Of a stretch of 64,000 nucleotides of DNA, positions 4,631-44,130 are shown in pieces. A program made the translations under genes and the position numbers. The notes under the pieces were generated by a model. That model did no database searches and was not told the origin of the DNA. It saw only the letters and a program-made list of their open reading frames with translations. The DNA is from Chitinophaga pinensis (GTDB lineage Bacteria; Bacteroidota; Bacteroidia; NS11-12g; UBA955). Position 1 is the stretch's first letter, and the number at the start of each line of letters is the position of its first letter. The stretch spans positions 62,001 through 126,000 of the forward strand of contig CAMDUE010000004.1 in assembly GCA_945877575.1 (NCBI GenBank). The letters are read 5' to 3'.

Positions 4631-5590
4631 ATGTCAACGGAAAAGATTTTAGTCATTGGTTCATGCGGGCAGCTTGGAACAGAGTTGGTTGAGTCGCTGA
4701 GAGAAATTTATGGTGAGTCTAATGTAATTGCATCAGACATTCGCAAATCAGACAGCGAAGTATTTCAATCGGGTCCATTTGAAACCTTGGATATTTTAGA
4801 TGCTCAAAGATTTAAAGAAATCTTAATGAAATACAAGCCAAAGCAAGTATATCATTTGGCTGCTTTGTTAAGTGCCACTGCCGAAAAGAATCCAGAATTT
4901 GCTTGGAAGTTGAACATGGATGGGCTTTTCCACGTGTTGGATGCGGCAAAAGAAGAAGGATCTGGAATAGGCCGTGTATATTGGCCAAGTTCTATAGCGG
5001 CTTTTGGTCCAAATACGCCTCGATTTGGAACACCTCAGTATGGACCAATGGATCCCACCACTATGTACGGAGTTACCAAATACACGGGTGAATTATTGAT
5101 TCAATATTATCACAACCGATACGGTGTTGACATTCGCAGTTTGCGTTATCCTGGACTTATTGGTTACAAGAGTGAGCCAGGCGGTGGAACTACAGATTAC
5201 GCAGTTGCTATCTATCACGATGCTTTGCGCGATGGTAAACATGAATGTTTCTTGGGTGAAGGCACTACATTGCCCATGCTTTATATGCCAGATGCTTTGA
5301 AGGCTACATTGGAAGTGATGCACGCTCCATCTGAAAAGATAGGTATGCGGATGAGTTATAACTTGGCAGGAATGAGTTTCGCACCCGAAGAAATCGCTGC
5401 GAGCATTCAAAAGCACCTACCCAATTTTAGCATTTCTTACAACCCTGATTATCGTCAAGCCATTGCCAATAGTTGGCCAGCTGTCATTGATGATTCTTTA
5501 GCTAGGGATCATTGGGGATGGTCACCTGAATATGATTTAGATGCTATGACAACAGATATGTTGTTGAATATTAAAGAGATATATTTTTAG
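4631..5590 (+). CDS. tdh: L-threonine 3-dehydrogenase, epimerase-like (short-chain) type
   Basis: A 319-residue extended short-chain dehydrogenase. The NAD-binding glycine motif is at residues 8-14 (GSCGQLG), the sugar-epimerase-like catalytic YxxxK is YGVTK near residue 155, and the phrases SSIAAFGPNTP and MLYMPDALKATLEVMHAP are typical of the UDP-galactose-4-epimerase-like threonine dehydrogenases of Flavobacterium and Cytophaga. It oxidises L-threonine to 2-amino-3-ketobutyrate, which a Kbl ligase (not in the window) would cleave to glycine and acetyl-CoA. Its TAG stop runs directly into a heptamer repeat array. Divergent from the anti-sigma operon. Confidence 0.88.
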   Translation: MSTEKILVIGSCGQLGTELVESLREIYGESNVIASDIRKSDSEVFQSGPFETLDILDAQRFKEILMKYKPKQVYHLAALLSATAEKNPEFAWKLNMDGLFHVLDAAKEEGSGIGRVYWPSSIAAFGPNTPRFGTPQYGPMDPTTMYGVTKYTGELLIQYYHNRYGVDIRSLRYPGLIGYKSEPGGGTTDYAVAIYHDALRDGKHECFLGEGTTLPMLYMPDALKATLEVMHAPSEKIGMRMSYNLAGMSFAPEEIAASIQKHLPNFSISYNPDYRQAIANSWPAVIDDSLARDHWGWSPEYDLDAMTTDMLLNIKEIYF

Positions 5591-5756
5591 TACCAAGTGC
5601 CTAGTACATGGTACCAGGTACTAGGTCTAGGGACTAGAGACTAGGGACTAGAGACTAGAGACTAGAGACTAGAGACTAGGGACCAGGGACCAGGGACTAG
5701 AGGCTAGAGGCTAGGGGCTGGAGACTAGAGACTAGAGGCTAGGGGCTAGGGGCTGT
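5589..5756 (+). repeat. Heptamer tandem array A (GGTACCA drifting to GRACTAG), 24 units
   Basis: Twenty-four consecutive 7-base units can be read without a single indel from 5589 to 5756. The first units are AGTACCA, AGTGCCT, AGTACAT, GGTACCA, GGTACTA; the rest are mostly AGACTAG, GGACTAG, AGGCTAG, GGGCTAG and GGACCAG. The first unit overlaps the TAG stop of the threonine dehydrogenase gene. CTAG is its own reverse complement, so the 7-base period puts TAG in all six frames. Lies between convergent genes. Confidence 0.93.
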
Positions 5757-5790
5757 AATTCGGCACATGAAACCCGACATCCTATACCCG

Positions 5791-5874
5791 AAACCTGCTA
5801 CCAACTACCTGCTACCAACTACCAACTACCAACTACTATCTACCAACTACTATCTACCAACTACCTGCTATTAA
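5791..5874 (-). repeat. Heptamer tandem array B (CTACCAA), 12 units
   Basis: Units read on the plus strand are AAACCTG, CTACCAA, CTACCTG, CTACCAA x3, CTACTAT, CTACCAA, CTACTAT, CTACCAA, CTACCTG, CTATTAA with an unbroken 7-base period. The final unit, CTATTAA, holds the stop codon of the convergent DUF6029 gene (5871-5873). The monomer is the reverse complement of TTGGTAG in array D. About 35 bases of non-repetitive sequence separate arrays A and B. Confidence 0.92.
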
Positions 5875-7619
5875 AAATTGCTGCTTACGGTGAAACGAAC
5901 GCCGCTGAAGGCGGGTTCTTCACGGCAAATACCGCCGCTGCAGTTTACGCCTTGTTGTTGTTTTAGGTAACTCAGGGTGTAGAAACTGTTGTTGTGGTTG
6001 TAGCTCATGAAGATGGTGGGGTAGTGTAAAATGCGGTTTTCAATCGTCATTCTTTCGTATCGGTGGGGTTCTATGTTGACCATGTCGCCAACCGAAAATG
6101 AAATTTCTTTACTGAAATAGTATTCAATCATTAGGTTGGCAAATGAACCTTGATCTTTATCGGTTTTGAGGTATTGTGCTTCAATTCTAAGGCTTTTTCC
6201 TTTGCCAATTTTATGGAGCCATTCCGCAAATGGGGTGATGGTGTGCACAGGTTCGTATTCTGGTTCTTGTTCGTAGCGGGCTTGGTTGTAATAGATGGTT
6301 TGAAGTCCTAGTTTTAGAGTGTGTTTTCCTATGTTTTGGATTAGTTGTCCGTTGTATTCGCGGAAAAGTTGAATGGGCTTCATAGAGTTTGTAGAGGAGT
6401 CAAGTGAGCCGTTGTGTGCCAATGATTGCACGTAACTTGCGTTGAAAGATAAACGGGTAGATTTGTTGATTTTCGCGTCAATTTCCATTTGGATGCCGTT
6501 TTCACCAAGATCTTGGGCAGGTGCGTTGTAACGCGCCATCAGTCTGTAAGTATTTTGACGGGTCATGGATGGCAAATAGCTGATTAATCCATTGAGGAGG
6601 TTTTCTCTTGGGGATGTTCTGAGCGTGAAATGATCTACATGTCGGGCTTGAATATTGATTCCTAAATTGAGAGTAGTTGGTTTTTTTATGGCTTGTGAAT
6701 TTTTATCTCCACTGATTTTTTTAGGTTTGCCTAATTTGATGGTTTTTGAACCCCAGCTGAGGTTTCCGTAAAAGACTTTACCATTTTTGAGGGCGAGTTT
6801 GTTATTGAAATCTACAATGGCTTCTGGGGATTTAAAATTTGCTTCTCCTCCGAAGGAGAAATTGCCTTTTGTATAGGTGGCGTAACCATTGAAGCCGTAT
6901 ACATTGTATTTGGGATAGAATTGGTCTTCGCGGTCGTAACTATTGATGATGGAAACCAGTTCATCCATGGTTTGGCGATCGATGTTGCGATTGAGTGCAG
7001 AAGCTCCTAGGTTCAGCATTCCATATTTAGCATCCATGCCAAGGTCAACTTCGCCTTCAAGATTGATTCCACTAATGACTTGTGGACTGGTATTGAAGCG
7101 GGTATCGGCGAATTTATTACCTTTTTGATTTCCGGAGAAGGCTTTGATTTTCCAATGATCGTTGAGGTCATAGACCAATCTTACGCCTTGCATAGAGTAA
7201 TCAATTCCTATTTGTCTTTGTTCGTAGGCTCGGAACAGAATACCGGAACCGAATTGGTCATAAAATGAACCTACGGTGATATTGAGGTCTTTAAGTTGTT
7301 TGCTGGCTTGCCAGAAGCCAATGCCGTGAGCAGTATAGGCATCTAAAGGGTCGAGAAGAGGTGAATTGTTGAAGGCGTCGTAGCGTACAACAAAGTTGTA
7401 CCCTTTGATGCGGTATTGCATAAATAGCCAAGCGTCTACACTGGCAGTATTTTCAAGATAGACGCGGGTGTTCGCGCCGATTTTATCGTCGCGAAGGTAT
7501 TTTTGGTAGTTAAGGAGTAGGTTTCCGCTGAATTGGCCTTGGTCTTCTGATTTTTGCGCGAAGGAACTTCCCCAGAAAGAAAAAGCCAAAAGCGCCAAAA
7601 ACACTCTAATTAATTTCAT
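5871..7619 (-). CDS. DUF6029 family outer-membrane beta-barrel protein
   Basis: A 582-residue protein starting [13 protein letters not shown] with a signal peptide cut after SSFAQ. The remainder is rich in alternating-hydrophobic strands ending in aromatic residues and closes with [12 protein letters not shown], as expected of a beta-barrel inserted by the BAM complex. The segment [20 protein letters not shown] and [29 protein letters not shown] resemble the Bacteroidota DUF6029 family. Function unknown; no plug domain or TonB box is seen. The open frame extends upstream to 7805 but overlaps miaB there; the ATG at 7619 with the signal peptide is clearly the start. Its stop is inside a repeat unit. 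Confidence 0.85.
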
Positions 7620-7673: not shown

Positions 7674-9068
7674 ATGAGCACACATCCAGCAGCAGAAAAG
7701 ACATCCAGAAAACTTTATATTGAGAGTTATGGCTGTGCCATGAATTTTTCGGACAGCGAAATTATTGCGAGTATCATGGGTGAGCACGGTTTCGTGAATA
7801 CTCAAGATGAGCTAGATGCCGATGTGATATTTTTGAATACTTGTGCCATCAGAGATAATGCCGAGCAACGAATCAGACAAAGGTTGATTCATTTGCGTCA
7901 GAATAAAAAGCACAATAATGAACTAATTATAGGTGTTTTAGGCTGCATGGCTGAGCGTTTGAAAAGCAAGTTATTGGAAGAAGAGCACTTGGTGGATGTT
8001 GTTGCTGGGCCAGATAGTTACCGAGAATTGCCAAAGTTGGTTGCGGAGGTTGATGATGGTGGAAGAGCAATCAATGTATTGCTCTCGAGAGAGGAAACTT
8101 ATGGAGATTTAAATCCGGTGCGATTGAATTCAAATGGAGTAACTGCATTTGTGTCAATTATGCGTGGCTGTGATAACATGTGCAGTTTTTGCGTAGTTCC
8201 TTTTACGAGAGGAAGAGAAAGAAGCAGAGATCCGGAAAGTATTGTTAATGAGGTAATTCAGCTGAAGAATCAGGGCTATAAAGAAATTACTTTGTTGGGG
8301 CAGAACGTGAACAGTTATTTGTGGTTTGGTGGTGGTCCGAAGAAAGAATTCAAGAGTTTAACTAAGGAGGAGCAAGATAATTCGGTTGATTTTGCTGATT
8401 TGCTTGAAAAAGTGGCGGAGGCGGCGTCTGAAATGAGAATTAGATACAGTACTAGTCATCCAAGAGATATTAACGAGAAGGTTGTAGAGACCATGGCGAG
8501 ACACAAGAATATTTGCAATTATATTCACTTGCCGGTTCAGAGCGGAAATACCCGTGTTTTGGAAGCCATGAGTAGAAATTACAGCCGAGAATGGTACATG
8601 GAGAAAATAGAGATGATTCGGAGAATCATTCCTGATTGTGGGATTTCTAGTGATATCATTGCTGGATTTTGTACTGAAACAGAGGAGGAACATAAAGATA
8701 CTTTGTCTTTGATTGAATGGGCTCAGTTTGATTTTAGTTATATGTATAAATACAGCGAAAGGCCAGCAACACCTGCAGCGAAAAAGTTTAGTGATGATGT
8801 ACCTGAAGATGTTAAGGGTAGAAGATTGAGCGAGATCATTGCAGTTCAGAATAAAATGTCGAAAGAGAGAAATTCTGAGTACGTTGGAAAAGAGGTAGTG
8901 GTATTGGTTGAGGGGGAGAGCAAGAAGAGTGATCAAGACTGGATGGGAAGAAACGACCAAAATGTAGTGGTTGTATTCCCCAAAGAACACTATAATAGAG
9001 GCGATTTGGTAAAGGTTTTAGTAGAGAGAAATACCACAACCACGCTAATTGGTAAAGCCATTCACTAA
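7674..9068 (+). CDS. miaB: tRNA-2-methylthio-N6-dimethylallyladenosine synthase (radical SAM)
   Basis: 464 residues, normal MiaB length. The N-terminal MTTase domain ([40 protein letters not shown]) supplies three Cys for the auxiliary [4Fe-4S] cluster; the radical SAM core has CDNMCSFC near residue 166; a TRAM domain ([13 protein letters not shown] to the end) binds tRNA. It adds the methylthio group at C2 of i6A37 in tRNAs reading UNN codons. Divergent from the DUF6029 gene with 54 bases between starts. Confidence 0.97.
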
Positions 9069-13696: not shown

Positions 13697-14977
13697 ATGA
13701 GGCATTTTCTTCTTTCGTTTATAGGACTTTCGTTTCTGAGTCAATCAAAAGCAACTACCGATAGTTTGCTTAGATATGACAACGCCATTTACGAAGGGGA
13801 TGTAAGGTCGGTTCAGTTTTTGAATTCTTCTAGCGGATTTAATTTTCCGGTGGTTTCTTTGGGTACTGAAATAGAGACGTTGAAATTGACATTCGACCAA
13901 TTGACGAGTGAAAGAGATTATTTTCAATATACCTTGATTCATTGCAATGCTGATTGGACTCCATCGGGGTTGCCTCGAACATTGAGTGTTGATGGGGTTG
14001 GTTTTGAGAATATTGATAACGCGAGTTTTTCAAATGGAACATTGACTCAATATGTACATTATGAGGTGATGTTACCCACAGAAAATACGAAGCCCAAGGT
14101 TTCGGGCAATTACGTATTGGTGGTTTACCGGAATTTTGATGAGAAAGACATTATTCTTTCTCGAAGGATGATGGTTTTGTCGAGCAAAGGTGCTGTAAAT
14201 GTGAATGTAAGTCAGAGCAGTCAGGTGGAGTTCAGGGCGCAGCAACAACAAGTAAATTTTGTCTTTAATAAATCATCTGCAACATATTTTATTCCTAATC
14301 CGTATACTGATTTGCGCACGGTTGTGTTGCGAAATGGTGAATGGAAAGGCGCTATTTCAGATCTAAAACCACAATTTATCAAGGGGAATTCTTACGAATT
14401 CAATCAAATGATGGGTACTCAGTTTGATGGTTTGAATGAATACAGATTCTTTGATATGCGCAGCTTACAGATTGCACAGGCAGGAGTTAAAAAGAGGGCA
14501 AACATTGCCAATCAAAAGCACATTTGGCTTATTTCCGATAAGCCTCGCGGGTTTGATCGATATATGAATTGGCGCGATTACAATGGAAGGATTCTTTATG
14601 ATAATAAAGATTTACCTGAAGCCACCCGTGTTGAGAGCGATTATGTTTTTGTGCATTTTTCTTTGATGATGCCCGCTATCGCGGAGGATGTTTTTTTGTA
14701 CGGGGAACTGAGCGATTGGGAAATAAAAGAAGGATTCAAGATGTATTACAATACAGAGAGCAGTCAATATGAGGCTGTTGTTCCCTTGAAACAGGGTTAT
14801 TATAATTATTTATATTGTGCGGTTTCTTCGGATGGAAATACCAATTTCAAACCTATAGAGGGTTCTCATTCTACTGCAGAGAACAATTATATGGTTCTAG
14901 TTTATCACCGTTATCAAATGCTGGCTTACGATGAACTGATTGGATACGGTTTGGTTAATTCGCAGCCAAATCGTTAA
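13697..14977 (+). CDS. Type IX secretion system plug protein (DUF5103)
   Basis: A 426-residue exported protein with signal peptide (MRHFLLSFIGLSFLSQSKA). The segments DNAIYEGDVRSVQFLNSSSG, FPVVSLGTEIETLKLTFDQL and YQYTLIHCNADWTPSGLP-like text (residues about 25-100) match the DUF5103 family, which includes the plug protein that closes the lateral gate of the SprA translocon in Flavobacterium. A later domain (YGELSDWE, YNYLYCAVSS) has a carbohydrate-binding-like immunoglobulin fold. Its presence fits the many T9SS cargo genes in the window. ATG at 13697 is chosen over TTG 13691. The gene runs into heptamer array C at its stop codon. Confidence 0.85.
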   Translation: MRHFLLSFIGLSFLSQSKATTDSLLRYDNAIYEGDVRSVQFLNSSSGFNFPVVSLGTEIETLKLTFDQLTSERDYFQYTLIHCNADWTPSGLPRTLSVDGVGFENIDNASFSNGTLTQYVHYEVMLPTENTKPKVSGNYVLVVYRNFDEKDIILSRRMMVLSSKGAVNVNVSQSSQVEFRAQQQQVNFVFNKSSATYFIPNPYTDLRTVVLRNGEWKGAISDLKPQFIKGNSYEFNQMMGTQFDGLNEYRFFDMRSLQIAQAGVKKRANIANQKHIWLISDKPRGFDRYMNWRDYNGRILYDNKDLPEATRVESDYVFVHFSLMMPAIAEDVFLYGELSDWEIKEGFKMYYNTESSQYEAVVPLKQGYYNYLYCAVSSDGNTNFKPIEGSHSTAENNYMVLVYHRYQMLAYDELIGYGLVNSQPNR

Positions 14978-15046
14978 GTACATGGTACCTGGTACCTGGT
15001 ATATGGTACCTGGTACCTGGTACCTGGTACTCGGTACTCGGTACCT
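14977..15046 (+). repeat. Heptamer tandem array C (GGTACCT), 10 units
   Basis: Ten indel-free 7-base units: AGTACAT, GGTACCT x2, GGTATAT, GGTACCT x3, GGTACTC x2, GGTACCT. The first unit begins in the TAA stop of the plug gene. AGTACATGGTACC is also found in array A. Each GGTACC core is a 6-base palindrome. Lies between convergent genes, 6 bases before the stop of the next one. Confidence 0.93.
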
Positions 15047-15052
15047 AGTAGG

Positions 15053-16492
15053 TTATTTTAGTTGGTATAGTTTCATGCCGGAATAGGTTTGACCTTTGGC
15101 GAATTTCAGAGCCCAATTGGGAAGTTTCTTTGATAAAACGGGACGGTATTCTGCAATGAATCGAATGAATTTGGAGTTTGGAAGTGTGTTGTGCGTGATA
15201 ATGTATACTTTTTTATAGGGTTGCCAATCTATTGGGTAATAGTCGAAGGCATAATCTAACCAACGGTAGCTGGAATATTTTTGGACGGAATAGGTGTAAT
15301 ATGCACCTATGGCATCACCGATCAGGAGTGATTTATCGGTAGGTAGATGTTCTGATAGGAAGTCATACACTTGATGTGGGTGGCGTTCGGTTTTTTGGAT
15401 TTGTGCGGCGAGATGACGTCCCCCGAAAGAAAAAAAACCGTTGATGGCGAGTAAGAGGGAGAAATAGTGAATGAATTTGGTTTGGAAGTTGAGCCAGGGT
15501 AACTGCGGAAGAGTGATCAAGGCCAATAAAAGCATCGGTGGCAGATAGCGGTATTGTGGGGAGGCGAATGCAAACAATAAAGCGGAGAAGAAGAAGAGTG
15601 CGGTGAGGTTTTGATATTGAGGTTTTAGAAGCGGCTTTTTAGTGAAAAACAGGATGGTGGTGATGATTAAAATGGCCCAAAATAGGATCACATTAAAGGG
15701 TTGCTCTTTATAATGGGGCCAAAAACGATAGAATAAACTGTTTTCAAAAGCTGAATGAGGAAGATCTGTGCTGGTTATTTGATGATCTAATGTTTGCATG
15801 GACATTTGATTGTACCATGTGCTGAATTGATAATCTAAAGAATGGAAATAGAATGCCCAAGGAGCGATCAATATGAGGAAAGCGAGTAGTTTTTGAGGTA
15901 CGGTGGGTAATTTTAACCATTCGAAGGCGAACCATACGAATAGAATGGGCCAAATATAAAAATGTGCTGTAGATGAAATAGCTATAAGAGTGATTTTGGT
16001 AAAGGGCAGTCGTTTGGGTTGAATGAAAAGATAAAGTGATAGCAAGAATAAGATGATGGGTTCTACTCTCACGCTTCGGGATAATTCAAACGTTGATTTA
16101 TCGAGGGCGAAAATTAAAAGTAACAACAGGGGTAACCAGGTGTTTTTGAGGTGTTTATTGCGGTTGAGGGTGTGGTAGAATAGAAAAAAAGTAGCTAGTG
16201 TAAGAATGAGAAAGGGTAGGCGAACGGTAAAGATGTCAATGGAAAAAATAGTTAACCAAACATAGTGAAAGTATTGAATTAAAGGCGGGTAAGAGGCAAA
16301 CATCTTATCGGCGCCGGGATTGGGCCAAATGATGCTTTTGAAGGTACCGGTGAGTATTTTTTGAACGGCGGGATCGAGGTTTTGAACTTCATCGTTCCAA
16401 GCAACGGGTAAGATTTCTAGATTTATAATTCCAAGAAATACGTAGATGGATAGAAAAACAACAAAACCGTGTATGGGTTTGAGTTTTTTCAA
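15053..16492 (-). CDS. ArnT/PMT-like (GT39 family) membrane glycosyltransferase
   Basis: A 479-residue polytopic membrane protein with about ten hydrophobic helices. Near the N-terminus the first periplasmic loop carries the acidic pair in VAWNDEVQNLDP, as in the GT-C fold enzymes that use polyprenyl-phosphate sugars; a family match to PMT_2 is expected. The soluble C-terminal segment (LLIGDAIGAYYTYSVQKYSS) is also usual. Likely transfers a sugar from a lipid carrier to an envelope acceptor. It is the last gene of an operon with a polyprenyl synthase, which would supply the carrier lipid. Confidence 0.8.
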   Translation of the reverse strand: MKKLKPIHGFVVFLSIYVFLGIINLEILPVAWNDEVQNLDPAVQKILTGTFKSIIWPNPGADKMFASYPPLIQYFHYVWLTIFSIDIFTVRLPFLILTLATFFLFYHTLNRNKHLKNTWLPLLLLLIFALDKSTFELSRSVRVEPIILFLLSLYLFIQPKRLPFTKITLIAISSTAHFYIWPILFVWFAFEWLKLPTVPQKLLAFLILIAPWAFYFHSLDYQFSTWYNQMSMQTLDHQITSTDLPHSAFENSLFYRFWPHYKEQPFNVILFWAILIITTILFFTKKPLLKPQYQNLTALFFFSALLFAFASPQYRYLPPMLLLALITLPQLPWLNFQTKFIHYFSLLLAINGFFSFGGRHLAAQIQKTERHPHQVYDFLSEHLPTDKSLLIGDAIGAYYTYSVQKYSSYRWLDYAFDYYPIDWQPYKKVYIITHNTLPNSKFIRFIAEYRPVLSKKLPNWALKFAKGQTYSGMKLYQLK

Positions 16493-17018: not shown

Positions 17019-17996
17019 CTAGACGTTTCTATCAATGACAAAGTTAACCAATTGCCTCAAATGTATTTTGTATGGAGACTGAATGTTTAATTCATCAAGA
17101 ATTTTAAAGGCATTGTCTCGAAGTTCATTCATTTTTTGGGTAGCATAATCTATACCGCCGTGTTTTTTAATGAAAGCAACTACTTCGGTCATTTTTTGTT
17201 TGTCTGGGGTATTGCTTTTGATGAGTCTTCGAATGCTTCTTGTTTCACTGCTTGGGGCAGTTTTAAACGCGTGAATGATAGGAAGGGTTAATTTTTTCTC
17301 TTTGATGTCAAGTCCGGCTGGTTTTCCGGATTTGTTTTCACCAAAGTCGAAGAGGTCGTCGCGAATCTGAAAGGCAAGTCCAATATTTTCACCAAAGAGT
17401 CTCATTTGTTCTATGTGTTGTGGATCATTGGACGTAGAAGCTGCTCCAATTTGACAACAGGATGCGATGAGGGAGGCGGTTTTTTTTCTGATGATGTTGA
17501 AATAGTCTTCTTCGGTTGCGCTCATAAACCTTGCTCTTTCGAGTTGAAGAAGTTCACCTTCGCTCATTTCTTGAACGGCAGTGCTAACTATTTCGAGGAG
17601 GTCATGGTCTTTGTTTTTGATGCTGAGTAAAAGTCCCTTAGAAAGCAAAAAATCACCCACTAAAACAGCAATTTTATTTTTCCAAAGGGCGTTTATGGAG
17701 AAAAATGAGCGGCGTTGATAGCTTTCATCAACCACGTCATCGTGAACGAGGGTAGCGGTATGCAGCAGCTCCACCAAGGAAGCCCCGCGATAGGTTCTGT
17801 CGTTGATGTTTCCGAAGAGATTGGCTGAATAGAGAACGAAGATGGGTCTGATTTGTTTGCCTTTTCGTTTGACGATATAGGTCATAATGGTATCGAGCAG
17901 GGGCACCTGAGTTTTCATGCTGGCTCGAAATTCTTTTTCAAAGAAAGCGAGTTCCTCTTTAATGGGTGCTTTTATTTGCTCAATGCTCGAGCTCAT
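17019..17996 (-). CDS. Polyprenyl (all-trans) diphosphate synthase
   Basis: 325 residues. The first Asp-rich motif is HDDVVDES near residue 80 and the second is IRDDLFDFGE near 210; Lys/Arg residues for IPP binding are in KRKGKQIRP. This is the IspA/IspB family; a medium or long chain product (quinone side chain) is likely but cannot be read from sequence with certainty. ATG at 17996 (MSSSIEQIKAPIKEELAFFE) is chosen over 18032. Upstream, TACCTTCG (one mismatch from the -7 box) lies at 18005-18012 on this strand. Confidence 0.92.
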   Translation of the reverse strand: MSSSIEQIKAPIKEELAFFEKEFRASMKTQVPLLDTIMTYIVKRKGKQIRPIFVLYSANLFGNINDRTYRGASLVELLHTATLVHDDVVDESYQRRSFFSINALWKNKIAVLVGDFLLSKGLLLSIKNKDHDLLEIVSTAVQEMSEGELLQLERARFMSATEEDYFNIIRKKTASLIASCCQIGAASTSNDPQHIEQMRLFGENIGLAFQIRDDLFDFGENKSGKPAGLDIKEKKLTLPIIHAFKTAPSSETRSIRRLIKSNTPDKQKMTEVVAFIKKHGGIDYATQKMNELRDNAFKILDELNIQSPYKIHLRQLVNFVIDRNV

Positions 17997-18051
17997 CTTC
18001 GGTGCGAAGGTACGGAATTTGATTGGTTGCAAATAATGAAAGGTGAGCGAT

Positions 18052-18059
18052 TATATTTG
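18052..18059 (+). promoter_or_regulatory. Promoter with -33 TTG (18027-18029) and -7 TATATTTG
   Basis: TTG, 22 bases, TATATTTG: within the 17-23 base spacing known for Bacteroidota. The -7 box overlaps a potential GTG start at 18059, so the second GTG at 18065, where transcription would begin, is the better start. Confidence 0.55.
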
Positions 18060-18064
18060 TGATT

Positions 18065-18673
18065 GTGAAACGTTCATCGAAATTATTGATTTTGTGCGGC
18101 ACATGGGTGTTGTTGGGATCTTGCGGATTGACTCAAAAGAGTACTATGGCTATAGTTTATCCGCCGTTATCTGCTCTTGAAAATAATGATAAGGAAGAAA
18201 TTATGAGATGTAAAGAAAGGTTAAAGAGTACATTGACGGATTTTGGTGGTTTGACTGATAGTGCAGAGCGATCTGATGCTGAAATGTTTTTGGGTTTGGT
18301 AGAAGAACGTTACAACTCATACAAGCCGGCTGATGCGGCCATTTCTAAGTTGGTTGCAGTTGATAAATCTCAGATTTTGGTAGAGGTATTTGGAGGGAAT
18401 TGGTGTTCTGATACGCATGCGGGAGTTCCGGAATTTTGCAAAGTGTTGGATTTGTGTGGGTTTACTTCGTATCATTTTGAATACCATCGTGTGAGTCGGG
18501 ACAAGATGCTGGTAGATGGGCAGTCGAGATCGTTTGAAATTGTATCTGTTCCGTTGGTTAGGATTTATAAATTGGATTCGGAAGGTCAACGCACCTTATT
18601 GGGTGAAATAGTTGAGATGCCTCGTGAAAGTTGGGAGGCAGATTTATTGAAGTTGGTAGTTGGTAGTTGGTAG
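18065..18673 (+). CDS. Thioredoxin-fold lipoprotein
   Basis: About 202 residues with a lipoprotein signal (ILCGTWVLLGSCG; lipobox LLGSC). The mature part has a thioredoxin-like segment VEVFGGNWCSDTHAGVPEFC, in which only one Cys stands at the usual CxxC site, then a second half with the cis-Pro region VSVPLVRIY. Family members occur in many Bacteroidota but have no defined role; a missing second active-site Cys makes a classical disulfide reductase unlikely. The last six codons (LVVGSW plus TAG) are made of TTGGTAG heptamers, so array D supplies the C-terminus and stop. Confidence 0.75.
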   Translation: MKRSSKLLILCGTWVLLGSCGLTQKSTMAIVYPPLSALENNDKEEIMRCKERLKSTLTDFGGLTDSAERSDAEMFLGLVEERYNSYKPADAAISKLVAVDKSQILVEVFGGNWCSDTHAGVPEFCKVLDLCGFTSYHFEYHRVSRDKMLVDGQSRSFEIVSVPLVRIYKLDSEGQRTLLGEIVEMPRESWEADLLKLVVGSW

Positions 18674-18771
18674 GGGGTAGTTGGTAGGGGGTAGGGGGTA
18701 GCGGGTAGCGGGTAGCGGGGGTCGGACCATGGACTACCGACAATGGACAACGGACTATTGACCACCGACTA
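18653..18771 (+). repeat. Heptamer tandem array D (TTGGTAG to CGGACTA), 17 units
   Basis: Seventeen 7-base units without an indel: TTGGTAG x3, GGGGTAG, TTGGTAG, GGGGTAG x2, CGGGTAG x2, CGGGGGT, CGGACCA, TGGACTA, CCGACAA, TGGACAA, CGGACTA, TTGACCA, CCGACTA. The array starts inside the coding sequence of the thioredoxin-like lipoprotein and provides its TAG (18671-18673). Its last unit provides the TAG of the convergent gene (18769-18771). TTGGTAG is the reverse complement of the array B monomer. Confidence 0.93.
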
Positions 18772-19359
18772 CCTAAACAATACGGGTACTTCGAATTTAG
18801 TAATGGTGGTAGAATCTAATTCTTGATTTAAGAAATTGAGTGTGGGTTGAACGGAAGATTGGAAGTTTTTATATTTTAGAGTTATGCTGGTAGAGATGGT
18901 TGCAATCAATGCAAGCATGATGAGTGAAATAGGAGTAGTTAAGTTGTATATGAATTCAGATTTTCCGTATCCGTAGAGTTGATAAAATTCTGCGGGATTG
19001 TTAAATCCTTGAGGTGGTTGGAGGAGGTAATAGATAAAAAATCCTAAGGTAGTAAAAAGAGTGGCTAGTAGAAGGAAATAAACGCGTTGATTTTGCCAAG
19101 AGCCTAGGCGTAGTTTGATGTAGATTTCGCGGTCGGCGCCGAGAATTTTACCTCGGGTAAAGTTGCTGAATGCGTGCTTTTTAGAGATGTTTTCCAGTTC
19201 AAAGTCTACAGGACTTACAGCGCCGTAGAAATGTTTTTCAGAGGGTGTATTTTTGTAGTTTTCGTCGGAAAGAAAGGTGAAGAGAGTAATTTTTTCACAA
19301 ACTTCTTGTCGAGTGATTTGCGTTTTAAGGTAAAAGGATTGAAACGGATAACCGATCAT
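18769..19359 (-). CDS. Hypothetical membrane protein, two helices
   Basis: 196 residues, not recognised. A soluble N-terminal half (residues 1-85, with MIGYPFQSFYLKTQITRQEV and GAVSPVDFELENISKKHAFS) is followed by two hydrophobic helices (VYFLLLATLFTTLGFFIYYLL and LTTPISLIMLALIATISTSI) and a short tail. It overlaps the end of the pcrB-like gene by 4 bases (ATGA type), so it is translationally coupled to it. The terminal codons and TAG are in the last unit of heptamer array D. Confidence 0.7.
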   Translation of the reverse strand: MIGYPFQSFYLKTQITRQEVCEKITLFTFLSDENYKNTPSEKHFYGAVSPVDFELENISKKHAFSNFTRGKILGADREIYIKLRLGSWQNQRVYFLLLATLFTTLGFFIYYLLQPPQGFNNPAEFYQLYGYGKSEFIYNLTTPISLIMLALIATISTSITLKYKNFQSSVQPTLNFLNQELDSTTITKFEVPVLFR

Positions 19360-20108
19360 AATTGAACTTCGTTGAATTGATTCAAAGATACGCAGAGTTC
19401 TTGAAGGAGGGTTGAAGATTCAAATATTCCATTTCCAACTACAACAATATCTGCGCCGCTGAGCCAAGCGTTAACAGCTTGGTCTTGGCTTTTGATGCCT
19501 CCGCCAACAAACAGAATGGAGTCTGTATTTTTATGAACGGCGCGAATAAGATTTTGAGGTACAGGTTTTTGTGCACCTGAACCGGCATCGAGGTACAAAA
19601 TTTTCATACCCAGCATTTCGCCGGCCATTGCGGTGGCTGCTGCAATATCGGGTTTGTCATTGGGAAGAGGTAAAGTTCCGGAGATATAGAGTGCGGAAGT
19701 GAGTTTGCCGCTTTCAACGAGCATATACCCGGTTGGAAGGGTTTCAATTTGGTGTTTTTTTACCCAAGGTGCGGCGATAACTTGTTTTCCGATGAGGTAT
19801 TCAGGATTTCTACCAGAGATAAGACTCATAAATAGGAGAGCATCAGCGTCTGGGGCTAGTTGAATTTCATTTCCGGGAAAGAGGATTACATTGGGTGCGC
19901 CGAATTTTTTGAGGTCGGCGACGCATTTTTGGGTGATTCCGTTTGAGACTAATGAGCCACCTACCAGAAAAAGGTCAACACCGTGAAGTAGAGATTGTGA
20001 GATTATTTGATGAGAAAGTGAGCTTTGATGTTGGTCAGGATCTATCAAAATGGCCAACGATTTTTGCCCGTTATTTTTTTTGGATTTTAGTTTCTCGAGT
20101 AGGGTCAT
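19356..20108 (-). CDS. pcrB: Geranylgeranylglyceryl/heptaprenylglyceryl phosphate synthase family protein
   Basis: 250 residues forming a TIM barrel of the PcrB/GGGPS family. The phosphate-binding and substrate motifs are visible: LAILIDPDQH, DLFLVGGSLVSNG, VILFPGN, PTGYMLVESGK, YLDAGSGAQKPVP and VGGGIKS. The enzyme joins sn-glycerol-1-phosphate with a polyprenyl diphosphate. Bacteroidota carry such enzymes although their ether lipids are poorly known. A polyprenyl diphosphate synthase is encoded 1.4 kb away. Confidence 0.9.
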   Translation of the reverse strand: MTLLEKLKSKKNNGQKSLAILIDPDQHQSSLSHQIISQSLLHGVDLFLVGGSLVSNGITQKCVADLKKFGAPNVILFPGNEIQLAPDADALLFMSLISGRNPEYLIGKQVIAAPWVKKHQIETLPTGYMLVESGKLTSALYISGTLPLPNDKPDIAAATAMAGEMLGMKILYLDAGSGAQKPVPQNLIRAVHKNTDSILFVGGGIKSQDQAVNAWLSGADIVVVGNGIFESSTLLQELCVSLNQFNEVQL

Positions 20109-41573: not shown

Positions 41574-43283
41574 TTAAAATTGGATGTCTACTTCTAGGGT
41601 TTCAGAACCGCGTTGAATGGTTGCTTTGGTTTTATCACCGGGGTTGAATTTGCCTAAAGCCGACATATAATCTTGGATGTCGTTTACTGAAAAGTCGCCC
41701 AATTTCAAAACGATGTCATTTCTTTGAAGTCCTGCTTTAGCAGCAGCCTTGTCAGGGGTAACACCGTCAATGCGGAGTCCTTTATTGCTATAAGAATAGT
41801 CAGGCATAACGCCCAAGGTAACTTTGAAGCGGGTTTTTCCGGGTGATGGATCTACAGTTTTTGTGAAGGGTAATTTCTTACGCTTATTTTGTTTGACGAT
41901 TTTCTTAATCACATCAATACTGAATACCATACCGTCATAATTGATGCGATTTTCATCGTCATCAGGGGTATGATAATCTCTGTGTTGACCAGAGAAGAAG
42001 TGCAAAACAGGTTTGTTTTCAAGATAGAAACTTGCGTGGTCTGATGGACCCATACCGCTTTCTGTGGTGGCTATGTAGAGCAATGTGGTATCTGTTTTGA
42101 TTTTGGATAATGTTTGTTTCCAAACAGGCGATGTTCCAACGCCGTTGATGGTTAATGTTTTCTTGGTAGAGTCAATTCTTCCCAACATATCTATGTTGAT
42201 TACATAATTGACTTTTTTCATGTCAATCAAAGGATTTTGAGTAAAAAATTTGGATCCCAAAAGTCCAAGTTCTTCTCCGCTAAACGCAATGAATAGGTAA
42301 TTGTGTTTGCGGTAACCCCATTTTTTTAATTGTTTGGAAAGTTCAATCATTGCAGCCACTCCAGATGCATTGTCATCGGCTCCGTTGTGTATGGCTTGAG
42401 GACCGTTATAGCGGCTATTTTCGTATTCGTTGTAACCAATATGGTCATGGTGAGCGCAAACAATGACTGTTTTACGGCGGAAGTTGTTCTTATATCCAAT
42501 AACGTTATGTCCTAGAGCGGTTGGAGAAACCACTTTACTGACCATTTTCACGTGAAGTCCCTTCGGGAAACCAAAATTTGATTTGAAATAGAACACGGGG
42601 AAGTTACTGGGAATGGTGGTTCTTGCTAACTTGCCGCTCATGTGTTCGTCGTTTGCGGAGTTTCTCAAGAATATCACTCCAGCAGCTCCGCGAGCTTCGG
42701 CTTCTTTAACCTTTGTAGATACATCTGCGTAGTTGGCCAATTCGCTGTGTGGGTTTTCGTCTTGGGCGAAATAACCGTTTCTGATAACCACGATTTTACC
42801 TTTGACATCTACGTTTTCATAGTCGTTTTTGCCTAGTTTTTCAGCAACGATTCCATACCCCATATCAATGGCTTCGCCTTGGCAGCTGTCGTAATTGACG
42901 GTGGGTGAGAGGGGATAATAATCGGTGAATAATTCAAATTCTCTTGGAGGCGCAGCGCCATCGGGAGAAATTAAAACGAGTTTACAATCGTCACCGGCTA
43001 TTCGAAATTGGGTGATGGTAAACTGTTGGTATCCGTTATTGCCTAGAAGTTTTAGTCCGTTTTTTTTGAATTCTTTGGATATGTATTCAGCACTCATAAC
43101 TTCACCTGGAGAGCCTGTTTGTCTGCCTTTAAGTTCATCGGAAGCTAGGTAACTGATATGGGTTTTGAGTCGGAGTTTTTGTTCTTCTGCTGGCGTGGGT
43201 TTATTAGACTGGGCTGATGCGAAAGAACATCCCCCGAAAAACAAAAAAGCAGCGGAAATTTTATAGAGTTTGAAATAATTCAT
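41574..43283 (-). CDS. Exported M28-family metallopeptidase with PA and PDZ domains
   Basis: 569 residues. Signal peptide (FKLYKISAAFLFFGGCSFAS), then an M28 catalytic domain interrupted by a PA insert (GKIVVIRNGYFAQDENPHSE, about 150-230). Metal ligands are visible in order: HHDHIG, HNGADDNASG, FSGEELGLLG, INIDMLGR, and FSGQHRDYHTPDD. A C-terminal PDZ domain (GVTPDKAAAKAGLQRNDIVL) follows. It probably acts as an aminopeptidase in the periplasm or outside. It overlaps the TauE/SafE gene by 23 bases. Confidence 0.92.
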   Translation of the reverse strand: MNYFKLYKISAAFLFFGGCSFASAQSNKPTPAEEQKLRLKTHISYLASDELKGRQTGSPGEVMSAEYISKEFKKNGLKLLGNNGYQQFTITQFRIAGDDCKLVLISPDGAAPPREFELFTDYYPLSPTVNYDSCQGEAIDMGYGIVAEKLGKNDYENVDVKGKIVVIRNGYFAQDENPHSELANYADVSTKVKEAEARGAAGVIFLRNSANDEHMSGKLARTTIPSNFPVFYFKSNFGFPKGLHVKMVSKVVSPTALGHNVIGYKNNFRRKTVIVCAHHDHIGYNEYENSRYNGPQAIHNGADDNASGVAAMIELSKQLKKWGYRKHNYLFIAFSGEELGLLGSKFFTQNPLIDMKKVNYVINIDMLGRIDSTKKTLTINGVGTSPVWKQTLSKIKTDTTLLYIATTESGMGPSDHASFYLENKPVLHFFSGQHRDYHTPDDDENRINYDGMVFSIDVIKKIVKQNKRKKLPFTKTVDPSPGKTRFKVTLGVMPDYSYSNKGLRIDGVTPDKAAAKAGLQRNDIVLKLGDFSVNDIQDYMSALGKFNPGDKTKATIQRGSETLEVDIQF

Positions 43284-44130
43284 AAACAGTTTTAATCAAA
43301 ATAGTTAGAGACAGGAGTGCAAATATAACTCGAATAGAAATGGCTGACATTTTTGTGGCTAATTTCTGTCCAAAAGATGAGAAAAAAATCACTCCCGTCG
43401 CCATAGGTAAATAATAGGGCCAAACTAGATATTGGGTATGCCAAAGCGGTAAATTGGGAACGCTTTGTTGATTGATATACTGAATGATAGGCAAGATTGC
43501 CAACAAGGGTACTACACTTAGTGATAGGGCCGTAGCTGATTTAGTGGGCATTTTGAGAAACATACGGAATAGGGGCACCATTATTATTCCGCCACCAAGT
43601 CCGGAAAGGGAAACGACAGAACCTGCTAACAAACCGACGAAAATGGGTTTTAGGGGGCGGGGGTCGGGAGACGGGTGACGGGGGTCGGGAGACGGGTGAC
43701 GGGGGTTGGGAGACGGGAGACGGGGGTTGGGGGAAGGGTTTTGGGGGTCACGGATGAATAACATATTGGAAATAGAGATCAAAAGAAAAATGAGAAAAAC
43801 ATAGGAGAAACGTTGATGGCTGTACCAAGAACCTTGTTGAATGAGGTAACTGGTAAATGCGGCAGCTGCGGCACCTGGAATTCCTACGCTGAGGGAGTTC
43901 TTGAAGTTGTAGATGCCCATTCGGTATTGTCTAAAAATGCCTGAAATTCCTGATGCGAATACTAATGCAATGGAGTTGGCTAGGGTGAACTTTACTATTT
44001 CATCGGTAGGTAAACCTTGTTGAGAGAACAAATAAGTCAGTACCGGAATAAAAATCAATCCACCGCCTACTCCCATGATTCCAGCGAGTAGTCCGCCAAC
44101 TGAGCCAATTAGAATGAGGGCGAAATCCAT
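43261..44130 (-). CDS. Sulfite exporter TauE/SafE family protein with in-frame heptamer repeat insert
   Basis: 289 residues with about seven to eight transmembrane helices. Both half-repeats have glycine-rich motifs (GSVGGLLAGIMGVGGGLIFI and AGSVVSLSGLGGGIIMVPLF). Between them, at about residues 127-160, sits a Pro-rich loop of repeating (P-x-P-R-x-P-S) encoded by heptamer array E. TauE/SafE proteins move sulfite or sulfoacetate-like anions. Its start codon shares one base with the stop of the S41 gene and its end overlaps the M28 gene by 23 bases. Confidence 0.88.
   Translation of the reverse strand: MDFALILIGSVGGLLAGIMGVGGGLIFIPVLTYLFSQQGLPTDEIVKFTLANSIALVFASGISGIFRQYRMGIYNFKNSLSVGIPGAAAAAFTSYLIQQGSWYSHQRFSYVFLIFLLISISNMLFIRDPQNPSPNPRLPSPNPRHPSPDPRHPSPDPRPLKPIFVGLLAGSVVSLSGLGGGIIMVPLFRMFLKMPTKSATALSLSVVPLLAILPIIQYINQQSVPNLPLWHTQYLVWPYYLPMATGVIFFSSFGQKLATKMSAISIRVIFALLSLTILIKTVYELFQTL
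43653..43750 (-). repeat. Heptamer tandem array E inside the TauE/SafE gene, 14 units
   Basis: Plus-strand units: GGGGGCG, GGGGTCG, GGAGACG, GGTGACG, GGGGTCG, GGAGACG, GGTGACG, GGGGTTG, GGAGACG x2, GGGGTTG, GGGGAAG, GGTTTTG, GGGGTCA, with no indel. Three heptamers make 21 bases, so the coding product repeats every seven residues. Unlike the intergenic arrays, no unit gives a stop in the host gene's reading direction. Confidence 0.92.

Follow-up and report, generated by a model that had tools for sequence, protein, structure and literature searches.

The 3' ends of two convergent genes meet in a tandem array with a period of 7 nt (array D; Table 1) within the window, i.e. the whole stretch of 64,000 nucleotides that was analysed. 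The left gene is a lipoprotein-like ORF, for which no Pfam match was found. It ends with the codons TTG AAG TTG GTA GTT GGT AGT TGG TAG, and the encoded protein terminates in ...LKLVVGSW within the period-7 array. The opposing gene, read from 19359 to 18769, ends with GTA TTG TTT AGG TAG. The first-pass annotation had read the last codons and TAG of the lipoprotein as array units, and had placed the stop codon of the opposing gene (CTA at 18769-18771) in the last array unit. Both readings hold. The inverted right half (TAG TCGG TGG TCAATAG...) has the second stop as its outermost unit. The pair is flanked by a polyprenyl synthetase (PF00348) and a PcrB-family gene (PF01884) within 17019-20108, and is retained in many genomes of the genus.

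Table 1. Features of the array D junction and three other heptamer arrays of the window.
Feature	Position	Strand	Description
Lipoprotein-like ORF	18059..18673	+	204 aa; last residues and TAG inside the array
Array-coded tail (about V-V-G-S-W) and TAG stop	18651..18673	+	array/coding overlap of 23 nt, stop included
Left array half	18651..18727	+	G-rich on +; units GGTAGTT, GGTAGGG, GGTAGCG; canonical G-quadruplex motif on +
Right array half	18728..18771	-	degenerate inverse heptamers, G-rich on -: TAGTCGG TGGTCAA TAGTCCG ...
Convergent ORF	18769..19359	-	196 aa; C-terminus VPVLFR native
Predicted hairpin from the inverted halves	18650..18775	.	one long fold including both stop codons; RNA MFE -46.3 kcal/mol, z -3.43
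Array	5589..5865	.	between convergent genes 4631-5590 (+) and 5871-7619 (-); TAG of the + gene touches the array
Array	14978..15044	.	between convergent genes 13697-14977 (+) and 15053-16492 (-)
Array inside - ORF 43261-44130	43653..43747	-	stop-free on the coding strand; heptapeptide repeat (..RHPSPDP..)

Each further copy of a 7-nt unit moves the reading frame on by one, so that a unit with one TAG closes every frame within 21 nt. This property, already claimed from the sequence, is seen directly at 18657, 18664 and 18671, where TAGs lie in three successive different frames within 21 nt, the third being in frame with the lipoprotein. The companion claim, that CTAG-containing units stop both strands, is true of the array at 5589-5865, in which such units stop all six frames (6, 6 and 7 stops on the plus strand, 10 in each minus frame). 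Array D has 4, 3 and 3 stops on the plus strand and 0, 2 and 1 on the minus strand, with one minus frame left stop-free because the right half is degenerate.

Homologues of the lipoprotein were located in 30 further genomes, and 21 orthologues, 11 from the same genus and 10 from the same family, were followed to their stops. The array is absent from the lipoprotein end in all 21. These proteins end in ...WE.DLL.IL plus 0 to 7 varied residues, and none has VVGSW. Since array-free orthologues have other C-termini, VVGSW is array-coded, and on this comparison the array has evidently replaced both the C-terminus and the stop of the lipoprotein. A different picture is seen for the opposing gene, where most relatives have a VPLVFR end, or one close to it, with TAA or TAG as the stop, compared with VPVLFR-TAG here. 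This tail is native, as array-free orthologues end alike, and the array took over the stop codon in place, leaving the tail unchanged. The expectation that array-free orthologues would end differently was thus borne out for the left gene and failed for the right one. Likewise, of the proposal that the array lies in both coding ends, the left part stands, but on the right only the stop codon is array-derived.

At the site of the array, the gene ends of relatives overlap in most cases. The two genes overlap by 4 to 21 nt in 8 of the 11 congeneric array-free relatives, and lie 1 nt, 32 nt and 130 nt apart in the remaining three. An array landing in such an overlap must supply stops. The earlier wording, that the array had “grown into both coding ends”, is therefore better put as insertion or expansion where the gene ends of relatives overlap or abut. 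Growth into the coding end and insertion upstream of the stop are indistinguishable here, because the original lipoprotein stop is not recognisable. For both genes, protein identity to the nearest relatives is only about 30-56%, with no strain-level empty site among those compared, so an overlap in the ancestor is something we only infer.

We consider it likely that the array entered a tight gene-end junction and re-capped a severed lipoprotein ORF, its supply of stops being a by-product kept by purifying selection. Two convergent genes, which in the ancestor most likely overlapped or abutted as in relatives, would have been spread apart by an array arising between them, without detectable loss of their coding core. 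The native stop of the lipoprotein would have been severed in the process, and the array would then have re-capped the ORF and written a short new tail. The opposing gene would have kept its tail, with its stop becoming part of the array. Purifying selection would spare an array at a coding end only if it offers a stop or begins behind a native one. The anatomy of the junction, the array-free orthologues, the overlap in relatives, the recurrence across the genome and the turnover between close homologues are all seen in the data; we infer that the event was an insertion or expansion, and that selection acted as the filter.

In terms of recurrence, a period survey of 590 kb of the same genome (contigs C1 and C4) found 26 tandem segments of period 7, 29 of period 14 and 25 of period 21. 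Every other period from 5 to 22 gave at most one segment and the shuffled control sequence gave none, which rules out a chance origin. The 19 array loci on these contigs comprise 10 convergent gaps, 7 tandem gaps, 1 divergent gap and 1 intra-ORF site, with convergent pairs making up 79 of the 445 neighbouring gene pairs overall. A canonical G-quadruplex motif is present on at least one strand in 12 of the 19.

We then considered 71 stop/array junctions, 42 from this genome (G000) and 29 from a sister genome of the genus (G011). Sites beyond C1 and C4, and all sites of G011, were picked by GGT-type patterns, so unit frequencies among them lean towards that type, and genes outside the window were called by codon usage with a simple caller. 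Relative to the stop, the array begins at -23 to +15 nt, limits that were not set by the search itself, which covered -35 to +30 nt. Coding sequence enters the array in 23 of the 71 junctions, by 7 to 23 nt. A maximum of 23 nt is what would be expected of 7-nt units that each carry one stop and move the frame on by one. In G000, TAG is the stop codon of 25 of 42 genes next to arrays and of 46 of 423 other genes (p=2.5e-12). The common unit of G011 is GGTGATC, and there TGA ends 14 of 29 array-adjacent genes. The choice of stop codon tracks the array unit.

This genome is highly compact: the median array-free convergent gap (n=69) measures 4 nt, and 27 of these gaps are at or below 0. This makes precise targeting of stop codons unnecessary, as such gaps alone bring an array close to a stop. 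Flank sums are alike in 19 array-bearing convergent gaps and the 69 array-free gaps (Mann-Whitney p=0.85), and the arrays look like insertions or expansions into ordinary gaps without DNA loss. A mobile REP/RAYT-like repeat that recognises stop-codon DNA and inserts there would also give arrays that begin at stops, often with stop and unit in register (e.g. TAG-TACC-AGGTACC). We regard it as very improbable. Compact gaps place any insertion beside a stop, TAG is not a required target (10 of the 18 stops are TAA where arrays of G000 begin at or after the stop), and the Y1 transposase (PF01797) has no match in G000 or G011. Reverse transcriptase (PF00078) has none in G000 and one in G011. A RAYT or retroelement/DGR origin was rejected, with PF01797 and PF00078 both absent from G000.

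The arrays have a clear polarity. In 62 of the 71 junctions, the sequence that follows the stop is G-rich on the sense strand (p=7e-11), and the skew falls from the first to the last quarter, with reversal, in 26 of 30 convergent and 23 of 25 tandem arrays. The median fold z on the sense strand is -3.45, which array D closely matches. These features, together with the convergent share given above, favour a selected 3'-end element, whose inverted G-rich halves would form a bidirectional hairpin or G-quadruplex with the stop codon as part of the design, ending convergent transcripts or protecting mRNA 3' ends. As an account of the arrays this seems improbable to us. The same junctions in relatives do without the array, arrays also occur inside ORFs, and about 40% of arrays have z above -2, i.e. 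no unusual fold. At the locus, no T-tract (Rho-independent) terminator was found in 18400-19100, where the GC hairpin is present alone, and an intrinsic terminator reading was dropped. In tandem gaps, moreover, the array's downstream end has a polarity antisense to the gene that follows; the polarity hence belongs to the array, not to the gene. The supply of stops is most likely a by-product that lets the array persist at tight gene ends, and the array may conceivably also act as a 3'-end element.

The layout is mostly (GGTNNNN)n...(NNNNACC)n, and the two halves use different words. The inverted half is therefore no simple copy, and snap-back copying was discarded as its source. This layout resembles fused telomeres and would suit an origin at DNA breaks, with G-rich heptamers added to both 3' ends before the ends were joined. 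TTTAGGG, the heptamer of plant telomeres, occurs in runs at a convergent gene junction of the sister genome (near 7689-7845 of locus L140, G011:C2:44712), which fits the same idea. We hold an origin at breaks to be distinctly unlikely, as no enzyme for it was identified (reverse transcriptase being absent from G000), the flank sums show no DNA loss, and slippage plus copying between arrays is simpler.

Returning to insertion or expansion with selection as the filter, this explanation predicts that stop-free arrays occur only after a native stop or read through within an ORF, and the window offers a case of each. The first-pass annotation expected TAG in arrays elsewhere. Arrays elsewhere do contain it, or TGA in the sister genome, but not in every case: all six frames of the array at 14978-15044 are free of stop codons. 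It starts directly after a native TAA, and both flanking genes keep TAA. The array at 43653-43747 is translated into a heptapeptide repeat rich in Pro, NPSPNPRLPSPNPRHPSPDPRHPSPDPRPLKP, which has hydrophobic stretches on either side. By eye, the ORF that carries it looks like a membrane permease of the TauE/SafE type.

Capping of a gene end is also seen at other loci. At C4:171465 the left gene ends HTGGIG-TAG within an array. In G011 its orthologue has HTGGQMGVETLNPSN as its end and a 4-nt overlap with the convergent neighbour, and the gene ends overlap in five other members of the genus too. States before and after gene-end separation are thus visible within one genus. A third gene, an alpha/beta hydrolase (PF07859), lies on a stretch that is 93-98% identical at the DNA level between contig C22 of G000 (locus L133) and contig C1 of G011 (L134). 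The two hydrolase arrays are many multi-base insertions and deletions apart, and the proteins end KKVLEMVVGSW and KKVLSVVGSW. For the convergent pair L125/L140, arrays are present in both genomes with different words. Other compared shared genes of G000 and G011 are about 53-90% identical (protein), and C22 is likely, from its near-identity to G011, a mis-binned contig or a recent transfer. Across the loci 18653-18673, L133, L134, L144 and L145, unrelated proteins share array-coded tails: VVGSW is common to the hydrolase and the lipoprotein, and IGDR, ISDR or VGSR are found on several G011 proteins.

These cases show in concrete terms how overlapping bacterial genes may come apart and how non-coding repeats may turn into protein C-termini. 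A stop-bearing repeat with a frame-shifting period (7 is no multiple of 3) would limit its own extent in coding DNA. This may be part of the reason why bacterial genomes tolerate heptamers as long repeats. A bolder reading, which we put forward with little confidence, is that a self-propagating heptamer system, active across the genome, enters overlapping convergent genes, separates them, caps both with stops and a hairpin 3' end, and so rewrites protein C-termini time and again as a modular gene-end cassette, the tails that recur on unrelated proteins, such as VVGSW or IGDR, being examples.

The short tandemly repeated repetitive (STRR) heptanucleotides of cyanobacteria are also heptanucleotide tandem repeats. 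Three in Calothrix are mentioned in PMC4692102. Unit sequences and hosts differ from those here, and gene-end capping is not known to be described for STRRs. The closest known repeats are the G-rich heptamers of Xanthomonas and Nostoc (GGGNATC; Rehm et al. 2015, PMC4692102). They have period 7, are mostly intergenic and rare between divergent genes, form inverted pairs with the G-rich strand pointing inward from both flanks, vary in unit number, and lie at most 50 bp from stops on the coding strand, some overlapping them. G-quadruplex formation in vitro is a further trait of that class. Our arrays share the strict 7-nt period, the predominantly intergenic location, the G strand as coding strand after the stop and the inverted inward pairs. 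They belong to this known kind of inward-pointing G-rich heptamers, and the inward polarity is a property of the kind, since the Xanthomonas and Nostoc heptamers share it. In contrast to the GGGNATC or GGGGA(C/T)T units with four G3+ tracts reported there, the arrays here are longer and mixed, with RGTNNNN words that often bear stops. Most congeneric genomes lack arrays at the positions seen here, whereas 83% of positions are given as common to two Xanthomonas, and rewritten C-termini and capped overlaps are not among the features reported in the accessible text of Rehm et al. TAACTGA direct repeats, known from Beggiatoaceae, Cyanobacteria and some Bacteroidetes (MacGregor 2015, PMC4679880), follow the same stop-in-heptamer arithmetic, and their stop-bearing unit can overlap a coding end by up to 18 nt. 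They differ in unit, however, and have 2-6 copies mostly just upstream of start codons, whereas the arrays here are long and lie at stops. A literature search on heptamer arrays at Bacteroidota stop codons, which covered few subscription papers, returned only the TAACTGA and GGGNATC papers. The Bacteroidota version, with its capped overlaps and rewritten C-termini, appears undescribed so far.

Finally, for the distribution of the arrays, a stringent pattern of six GGT heptamer units was used. Of the 14 genomes of the genus, it picked out 3 with arrays (483 hits in G000, 282 in G011 and 2 in G002). Array lengths in a metagenome assembly may be incorrect, and fragmented relatives could have lost arrays during assembly; the contiguous G006 and G007 are also without arrays. 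An in-frame TAA in a ribonucleotide-reductase-like homologue (G013:C2:31120-34467) is probably an assembly error. For the arrays themselves an assembly artefact is unlikely, given their presence in many genomes across the phylum and their divergence between regions that are otherwise nearly identical. The same pattern is present in 107 of 296 sampled Bacteroidota genomes, which makes the matter a general one.
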